Part shown: one piece after another, positions 31,974-33,712 of the stretch | Numbering within the stretch: position 1 is the stretch's first letter | Layout: each line of letters opens with the position of its first letter | Assembly: GCA_013214205.1 (NCBI GenBank) | Contig: JABSPQ010000332.1 | Coordinates: 1-40,110 of the forward strand | DNA length: 40,110 nt | Direction of reading: 5' to 3' | DNA from: Flavobacteriales bacterium | Lineage (GTDB): Bacteria > Bacteroidota > Bacteroidia > DT-38 | Program-made: the position numbers and the translations under genes | Notes under the pieces: generated by a model | Databases searched by the model: none | Seen by the model: the letters and a program-made list of their open reading frames with translations, nothing else | Told to the model about the DNA's origin: nothing

Positions 31974-32343
31974 CTAAACAGCTATTCCTACACCTTCCAT
32001 TTACCAACGAAATGTAGCAAGGCACTAACCATTGGCGGTTCATTTTAAATGGCATTTTATCTATAACTGGGCAAATGGAAACCAAACCTTTATCCCAACA
32101 TTCAGTTTATTATATCACAGCACCACATCAACTTAACATGTACCGTTTATTGCATATTTGGTACAAACATTCAAAACATGAGACAAAAAGCACCACAATA
32201 CAAATTCAATCAACATTCACAAGAAAAATTGGAGACTATTAAATTTTAGGACAAACGAATTAATTCTCAACCTTACTAACTGCTAAAAAAACAAATAATA
32301 ATCTCCTTGCAACAGTTAAACGGCTACCCTATTACCAACCCAA
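31974..32343. other. Intergenic region between divergent genes
   Basis: About 370 AT-rich bases hold no convincing gene. A GTACC/GGTAC inverted pair flanks TTTATTGCATATTT near 32144-32164, with CATATTTG one mismatch from a -7 box on the plus strand. This could be the promoter of the sigma factor gene downstream. A 23-codon ATG frame starts at 32178 but shows no sign of being real. Confidence 0.4.
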
Positions 32344-33171
32344 ATAAACAAAAACGACCTAGATATCCAATTCAATGAATTAAAGAGCGAGCTTGCTACC
32401 TACATTTTCAGGCTTGTTACTAATCGACAAGTAGCGGAAGATGTAGTACACGATACTTACATTAAGGTAGTTGACAAAATAGATACGTTTAAGGGAAGCT
32501 CATCCTTTAAAACGTGGGTATTTAGCATTGCTACCAACATTGCAAAAAACATACTAACCAGACAAAACAAGTGGGTTGAAAGCGCTCAGGACTACGGTGC
32601 CATGTTGCACGTAAAATCTAAAAAGCATTGGGATACCTTTCAACAAGTATTTGCCTCTACCCCCGAACAAGAGTATGAAGTAAAAGAACATTTAGCTTAT
32701 TGCTTTAACTGCATAAATAAAACATTGGAGACTGAGCAACAGGTGTGCCTCTTACTCAAAGAAGTGTATGAATTCAAGGTTCACGAGATAATGCAAATCA
32801 CCGAGCTAACGGAAGGAAAAGTAAAGCACGCCATTGCAAATGCTAGGAAAGAGCTTGTTAATATTTTCGGAAAACGTTGTGCTTTTGTCAATAAAAACGG
32901 TGCTTGCCACCAATGTACAGAATTAACAGGCATGTTAAATCCTAAGCAAGACATTCAGATAAAAGCCAACAAATTGAAGTTGGTTCAAAAACAAAAAACA
33001 GAAAGCCAAGAACGGCTCCTTGATCTTCGGTTTGAATTGGTTCGTGCTGTAGACCCTTTAAATGCCAACAATAATTTAGTGACCACCTACTTTTTAGAAA
33101 ACTCAGAAAAGTGGGTTAAAGAAGGAATAGAAAAAAAAGTTTTAGAAAACCCGTCCGAAACCAAGCCATAG
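32344..33171 (+). CDS. RNA polymerase sigma-70 family factor with no canonical start codon
   Basis: The frame encodes a full sigma factor. Region 2 is read from 32400-32560 (TYIFRLVTNRQVAEDVVHD, then FKTWVFSIATNIAKN). Region 4 is at about 32690-32870 (EVYEFKVHEIMQITELTEGKV). A Cys-rich tail follows (CAFVNKNGACHQC) with a helical end. The first ATG in frame (32602) would delete all of region 2, so it cannot be the true start. The in-frame stop at 32317 bounds the frame, and no ATG, GTG or TTG lies between it and region 2. The ATA at 32344 (encoding INKNDLDIQ) is where an ATG would be expected. Either a rare start is used or the gene is inactivated at initiation. An SRPBCC gene follows after 34 bases. 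Confidence 0.75.
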   Translation: MNKNDLDIQFNELKSELATYIFRLVTNRQVAEDVVHDTYIKVVDKIDTFKGSSSFKTWVFSIATNIAKNILTRQNKWVESAQDYGAMLHVKSKKHWDTFQQVFASTPEQEYEVKEHLAYCFNCINKTLETEQQVCLLLKEVYEFKVHEIMQITELTEGKVKHAIANARKELVNIFGKRCAFVNKNGACHQCTELTGMLNPKQDIQIKANKLKLVQKQKTESQERLLDLRFELVRAVDPLNANNNLVTTYFLENSEKWVKEGIEKKVLENPSETKP

Positions 33172-33205: not shown

Positions 33206-33712
33206 ATGACTAAATTAAAAGCACCACTACAGCTAGAGCAAAAAATCCGCATTAATTCAACTCCCGAAAAAGTTTGGGAAGTCTTTAACAATCAATCATT
33301 TCTCACAAAATGGACTCAGGATGTACAGGGTTCTCAATATAAAAACAGAATGGCATCGCCCGGCCAGTTAAGAAAAAACGAATGTATTGTAAATGGTAAA
33401 ATAGGAACGATAGAAACACGCTGTGTTGGTATGACAGGCAAAGAGAGAGCGGAGTTTATTGTTGAAAACGATTCATTCGGCATTACAAAAATGCTATTGA
33501 ACATGTCGTTTGCAGCCGAGTTCCGAAAAATTAACAGCACCGAAACCGAATTTGTGATGCTCTCTCATTACACGCCTAAAAACTTCCTTTTAAGATTGAT
33601 TAACCCTTTAATTAAAAAGAAAATGGGTAAGGAAGTAGACATTATGATTAAAAGACTTAAAGACTATGTGGAGAAAGGGGAAACCAATAAGCTCAACCCT
33701 ATCAACAATTAG
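33206..33712 (+). CDS. SRPBCC (START/Bet v1-like) family protein
   Basis: A 168-aa soluble protein with the SRPBCC opening pattern LEQKIRINSTPEKVWEVFNNQSFLTKWTQDVQG, given at residues 8-39, and a C-terminal helix LINPLIKKKMGKEVDIMIKRLKDYVE spanning about 132-157. Such folds bind hydrophobic ligands in a deep cavity. It lies directly behind the sigma factor, with which it probably shares a transcript. No catalytic function can be assigned. Confidence 0.8.
   Translation: MTKLKAPLQLEQKIRINSTPEKVWEVFNNQSFLTKWTQDVQGSQYKNRMASPGQLRKNECIVNGKIGTIETRCVGMTGKERAEFIVENDSFGITKMLLNMSFAAEFRKINSTETEFVMLSHYTPKNFLLRLINPLIKKKMGKEVDIMIKRLKDYVEKGETNKLNPINN

Follow-up and report, generated by a model that had tools for sequence, protein, structure and literature searches.

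Among the ECF sigma factors, the passages of PMC8999054 on cysteine-bearing groups describe a CXC motif in the linker of CorE and C-terminal extensions abundant in cysteine in ECF287 and ECF288. For genes that begin at a near-cognate codon, the relevant sections of PMC13009471 report AUA starts in infC, ccpN and citZ of S. aureus, where reporters for ccpN and citZ (AUA) and for cvfC1 (AUU) reached approximately 10% of the AUG level, and where the ccpN AUA reporter reached up to 30% in rich medium. In F. johnsoniae, initiation is favoured by an A at -3 together with low structure, according to the part of PMC6847099 that deals with start sites. For the Bacteroidia, the corresponding part of PMC9976891 names A at -3, -6, -12 and -13 with little structure, and it states that the ribosomes of F. 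johnsoniae generally fail to recognise the Shine-Dalgarno (SD) sequence, with rpsU as the exception.

Here we analysed a 40,110-nucleotide stretch of DNA from a Flavobacteriales bacterium (the window, which is the complete contig G000:C260 of an assembly of 464 contigs and 5.11 Mb) in which an ECF-type sigma gene has an ATA at the place of its start codon. The reading that we favour, with evenly balanced confidence, is a real and recent change from ATG to ATA in a living ECF sigma gene, which would be weakly translated from AUA. Near-cognate starts are already known as a kind, and the sigma case is new; a search of the open-access literature on AUA or ATA starts, on infC of Bacteroidetes and on murI starts found nothing on this sigma gene.

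Table 1. Features of the sigma locus, in coordinates of the window
Feature	Position	Strand	Basis
In-frame TAA before the sigma frame	32317..32319	+	sequence
ATA at the site of the ancestral start codon; the three nearest orthologs have ATG there	32344..32346	+	ortholog register
Predicted ECF-type sigma factor CDS, 275 codons + TAG if read from the ATA	32344..33171	+	homology, AlphaFold model
Sigma-70 region 2, PF04542, 44.9 bits (cut-off 24)	32377..32568	+	Pfam
Earliest canonical in-frame start, ATG; a product from there is without any region 2	32602..32604	+	sequence
C120-x2-C123 pair, start of region 4	32701..32712	+	39-sequence alignment
Sigma-70 region 4, PF08281, 24.6 bits, just below the cut-off of 25.7	32722..32856	+	Pfam
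C-terminal motif RC-x8-CHQC-x-EL-x-G-x2-NPKQ, after region 4	32875..32949	+	39-sequence alignment
SRPBCC/Polyketide_cyc2-like gene, ATG start; 27.3 bits (cut-off 27.4)	33206..33712	+	Pfam

The original prediction stated that no ATG, GTG or TTG lies between the stop at 32317 and region 2, that the ATA at 32344 sits where an ATG would be expected, and that region 2 is intact and in frame. Our analysis bore this out: the earliest canonical codon is the ATG at 32602, before which CTG is likewise absent from 32320 onwards, the ATA is aligned with the ATG of the three nearest orthologs (L031, L032 and L033), and the Sigma70_r2 match begins at codon 20 of the open frame, at about 32377. The frame is open from 32320 to the TAG at 33169-33171, and the near-cognate codons in frame between 32320 and 32602 include ACG (32320), ATA (32344), ATC (32365) and ATT (32404). 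The 5′ leader of the gene also holds a 23-codon ATG reading frame (32178-32249, +).

A genome scan recovered 13 relatives of the sigma gene, and its named close relatives are Flavobacteriaceae. The nearest orthologs are those of Kriegella aquimaris (L031, 79% identity), Flavivirga algicola (L032, 72%) and an uncultured Flavobacteriaceae bacterium (L033, 72-73%), all with an ATG exactly opposite the ATA of the window; counted from that codon, the protein has 275 residues in the window, L031 and L032 and 273 in L033. The wider set of 47 homolog loci, less three copies of the window and two repeats, comprises 42 distinct genes. In each of these an ATG precedes region 2, falling at ungapped column 0 or 1 in 25 genes; the window alone is without one. 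A homolog at E 1e-40 was found in 29 of 395 genomes of the class, the genome of the window included, and a family-level search centred on G005, which was guessed to cover the Flavobacteriaceae, gave none in 35 at E 1e-75. Because the orthologs and all 42 homologs have ATG, the ancestral start codon, judged from these sequences, is ATG, and the window differs from it by one transition, real or apparent. Comparing the start base in relatives, as the original prediction had proposed, thus gave ATG throughout at the level of other genera. No near-cognate start conserved in relatives was found among the 42 homologs, none of which shares the ATA, and the ATA is therefore not a conserved regulatory start. 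As a putative near-cognate start, it lies at the homologous start position, and the conserved N-terminus is preceded by no canonical start. Beside the Flavivirga ortholog (L032:6426-8533), a second, longer sigma factor is followed by small genes that are presumably YCII-like, in an arrangement that we take to resemble an ECF42 cluster.

Between the window and L031, pN is 0.103 and pS 0.749 (ratio 0.138), and because most comparisons approach saturation at synonymous sites, the pN/pS ratios are rough. Branch-specific changes in the sigma gene, counted at sites where L032 and L033 agree, numbered 18 amino-acid and 22 synonymous changes for the window and 15 and 11 for L031; the downstream SRPBCC-like gene had 14 and 17 for the window and 11 and 11 for L031. 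At conserved columns, the window deviates 11 times, L031 10, L032 13 and L033 11 times. The 274 codons of the sigma frame contain no stop and no frameshift. Approximately 4.2% of random point changes would create a stop, and the neutral time since silencing is bounded at less than about 0.086 substitutions per site (95% level, indels ignored); the change, if real, is therefore recent, or the gene is still used. An old pseudogene was rejected by the pN/pS ratio and the stop-free frame. By these measures, the sigma gene is not decayed, and constraint is relaxed neither in it nor in its downstream partner. The latter is 71-75% identical to the sigma-adjacent gene in L031-L033, and among the loci searched, many with flanks of only 1.5 kb, such a neighbour was found beside the sigma gene only in these three and the window. 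As a guess, the SRPBCC-like protein may be a small-ligand partner.

No SD match of at least four bases precedes the sigma ATA (-20 to -1), which has C at -3 and A at -6, and the 63 bases around it are predicted to be unstructured (MFE 0.0 kcal/mol). For 184 first ATGs of the same genome, taken as putative starts, an SD 4-mer was found in 16 and an A at -3 in 77. Because the sigma ATA has neither an SD of the infC type nor an A at -3, expression from it should be weak, to judge from this context. A 2017 study by Hecht is said to have measured all 64 codons as starts in E. coli. The initiator tRNA tolerates a mismatch at the third position and IF3 discriminates against AUA, so that synthesis of the sigma factor would be low and would vary with IF3 activity, like that of infC. 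In the course of events that we propose, the ancestral ATG of an intact ECF sigma gene would have become ATA by one transition on the gene's own lineage, and the protein would probably still be synthesised from AUA at a low level.

The genus appears to use near-cognate starts in other genes. In infC of the same genome (L082, G000:C331), no ATG, GTG or TTG lies between the upstream stop and the conserved core, and the likeliest start is an ATA followed by GCA, 8-10 bases 3′ of an SD of the GGAGG type; infC of the congener G001 (L080) has the same arrangement. Across 25 genomes of the class, in all of which infC was placed by phmmer (L073-L097), 14 have no canonical start before the core, 11 of these with ATA at the likely start, and in the remaining 11 one or more canonical codons precede the core, sometimes downstream of an ATA-GCA. 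The ATA starts of infC often stand behind a strong SD, though SDs are rare in the group. Those of G008, G014 and G022, the last among the genomes with later canonical codons, have no SD 4-mer but an A at -3.

In the cell-wall gene murI (glutamate racemase), both genomes of the genus (L141:17589-18404, +, on G000:C410, and L150 in G001) have no ATG, GTG or TTG before the PIGIFDSG motif. The start candidates common to both are GTT at -6, or ATC/ATT at -5, where some relatives carry ATG or TTG (23 loci compared, with four that had no motif match left out), and the start codon is likely ATC/ATT; a one-base difference in upstream length would set an ATA of G000 opposite an ATT of G001 further up. 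Because murI of G000 lies directly behind the stop of the upstream gene, reinitiation may assist there, and the sigma gene has no such neighbour. Given that infC and murI of the genus have no canonical starts, the sigma gene could plausibly initiate at AUA. The original prediction had offered a rare start or silencing by a single base change. Its single-base difference from relatives held, with ATG in L031, L032 and L033, and the rare start gained plausibility from infC and murI; silencing of long standing fell away, given 274 codons without a stop, a pN/pS ratio of 0.14 and a neutral time below about 0.09 set against a pS of 0.75.

We also screened for coding sequence before the first canonical start by codon score, using the window and 20 further stretches of the same genome (257 kb; four all N), and the sigma frame ranked first of 145. 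When 20 more stretches were added at the same score cut, the sigma frame, earlier just above the cut, was absent from the 232 scored; once the cut was lowered, it was second among 311 frames, exceeded only by one of 70 codons with no match in Pfam. A Pfam scan of the 20 non-sigma frames among the best 40 of the screen showed that murI was the only other scanned frame with a domain before its first canonical start beyond a frameshift, truncation or difference of a few codons. It is conceivable, although we think it highly doubtful, that the lineage uses AUH starts (AUA, AUU, AUC) for IF3-sensitive, down-tuned genes including murI, partly without an SD, and that a single base change has newly brought the sigma gene into this set, so that a transcription programme would depend on the IF3 level.

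A foreign or contaminant origin of the contig was rejected: the tetranucleotide correlation of the window with nine stretches of its own genome averages 0.73 (0.63 among these stretches), and that with L031-L033 is 0.37-0.51. Por_Secre_tail and PorP_SprF domains are present on other contigs of the assembly (Pfam) and, with the Flavobacteriaceae among the named relatives, point to its phylum. Two proteins neighbouring the sigma gene match their own genome only (1 of 40 and 1 of 30 genomes) and a third has matches in 15 of 30 genomes, with a best foreign identity of 52%; because these matches are few or distant, the neighbourhood would seem poorly represented rather than clearly foreign. None of nine pattern matches was confirmed as a viral relative, and all 70 plasmid records fall below 60% identity. 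The sole Rfam match obtained, a group II intron domain at positions 1-120 of the window (-; RF02001, 44.3 bits, cut-off 32) with its 3′ end cut off, is unrelated.

That the organism has an ATG, and an ordinary gene, behind a consensus or assembly error is possible, if on the unlikely side. In favour of such an error, all 42 homologs have ATG, and the assembly, in 464 contigs, has at least two conserved genes frameshifted in 40 sampled stretches, which beyond the window hold 361,808 readable bases; consensus errors or decay therefore exist there. A LysM hydrolase (L100:715-2127, -; LysM from Pfam, GH73 by our own reading) and an arginine deiminase/DDAH-like gene (L135:8472-9656, -; Pfam) are each split by a frameshift, which may be a sequencing indel or a real lesion. 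The N-termini are missing from an APH-like gene and from a piece of an M28 peptidase. A same-frame screen gave six stop-interrupted candidates, of which L125 alone resembles a nonsense change; one other is the truncated APH case, and the rest look like neighbouring genes or chance frames. The possible in-frame stop in L125, around 5667 (-), lies within a small protein that we take to be lipocalin-like, and would be one further interruption of this kind. The established disruptions are, however, indels and not substitutions, and one convincing candidate in six matches suggests few substitution errors. Start codons are also a far smaller target than all stop-convertible codons, and apart from its start the sigma gene shows nothing unusual, its 11 deviant conserved columns comparing with 10, 13 and 11 in the orthologs. 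Indels seem to outnumber substitutions among the disruptions, a mild argument against a substitution error, although the window had been picked for its oddity.

A real but very recent silencing, in which no functional sigma factor is made and decay is beginning, we regard as unlikely. An ATA with neither an SD nor an A at -3 would be a poor start by the Bacteroidia rules given in the section of PMC9976891 cited above, and the next in-frame start comes only after region 2. The gene, however, has no stops, frameshift or relaxed constraint, its partner gene is likewise unrelaxed, and canonical starts are missing from infC and murI of the genus as well.

Initiation elsewhere, at another near-cognate codon (ACG 32320 or ATC 32365, both in frame) or by a frameshift from an upstream start such as TTG 32307, whose frame crosses the start region to a TGA at 32376-32378, is very improbable: no codon but the ATA lines up with the ATG of relatives, and a protein read from it has the 275 aa of the orthologs. 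An upstream frameshift or alternative start was accordingly rejected: near the start, the other frames between about 32200 and 32400 offer only this TTG and an ATG at 32375 that terminates after two codons.

With regions 2 and 4 both present, the predicted protein is an ECF sigma factor, and it matches TIGR02937 (sigma70-ECF) over residues 17-173 with 61.3 bits against a cut-off of 42.9. C120, C123, C179, C188 and C191 are invariant in an alignment of 39 sequences that excludes L037 and L038 (of 40 usable homologs) as well as L069 and L070, short or broken members of the 43-sequence set without an intact C-terminal motif. The AlphaFold model built with this alignment has a mean pLDDT of 87.6; in numbering from the ATA, its first helix spans residues 3-25, and C120-x2-C123 lies inside helix 113-125. 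The best solved matches in Foldseek are the ECF sigma factors SigG1, SigW, AlgU and RpoE, SigG1 (7qh5) being the top match with E 5.3e-5. The C-terminal extension of approximately 100 aa has no Pfam match over cut-off. Its cysteines (C179 and those of CHQC 188-191), together with the C120-x2-C123 pair, are near-invariant in the family and are candidates for a sensor of metal or redox state within the protein. It is probable that the sigma factor acts without an adjacent classical anti-sigma gene and senses through this extension.

If the ATA is real and used, the favoured reading of a living sigma gene with a changed start would provide a natural single-base change from ATG to ATA in a regulator of the Bacteroidota. 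Ribosomes of the Bacteroidota mostly ignore the SD, and the gene would then be a clean test of near-cognate starts without SD pairing. To judge from the comparison of infC and murI, gene callers that accept only ATG, GTG and TTG would assign wrong starts to conserved genes of the group. If the ATA is an error, one consensus base suffices to erase a regulator from annotation.

Compared with described sigma factors, the protein resembles the CorE-like groups (ECF44/ECF238) in a C-terminal extension that carries cysteines and in a pair of cysteines located between or at the sigma domains. Three invariant cysteines (179, 188 and 191) follow sigma 4 and may correspond to the cysteine-rich C-terminal domain of those groups. 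The CorE-like pair, however, is a CXC in the linker, whereas here a CxxC stands at the start of sigma 4; because the CXC linker motif was not found, we do not file this sigma factor under CorE-like. By analogy with CorE, we infer that an on-board cysteine-based sensor may replace the anti-sigma factor. In SigG1-type ECF factors, too, a fused extension comes after the sigma 2 and sigma 4 domains; it is SnoaL-like there and here cysteine-bearing, with no Pfam match over cut-off. Compared with described near-cognate starts, the sigma gene resembles infC of S. aureus, which is likewise intact and carries AUA at the corresponding start position, as does infC of the same genome with its ATA. The latter infC, however, has an SD and a weak start that recurs across the class, whereas no SD accompanies the sigma ATA, which among the genomes examined occurs in this one only. 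In the account given in the cited sections of PMC13009471, ccpN of S. aureus is, as the sigma factor would be, a regulator whose AUA start lowers synthesis, and the AUA of citZ is limited to one strain lineage, as here, but infC, cvfC1 and ccpN have extended SD motifs and the sigma gene has none.
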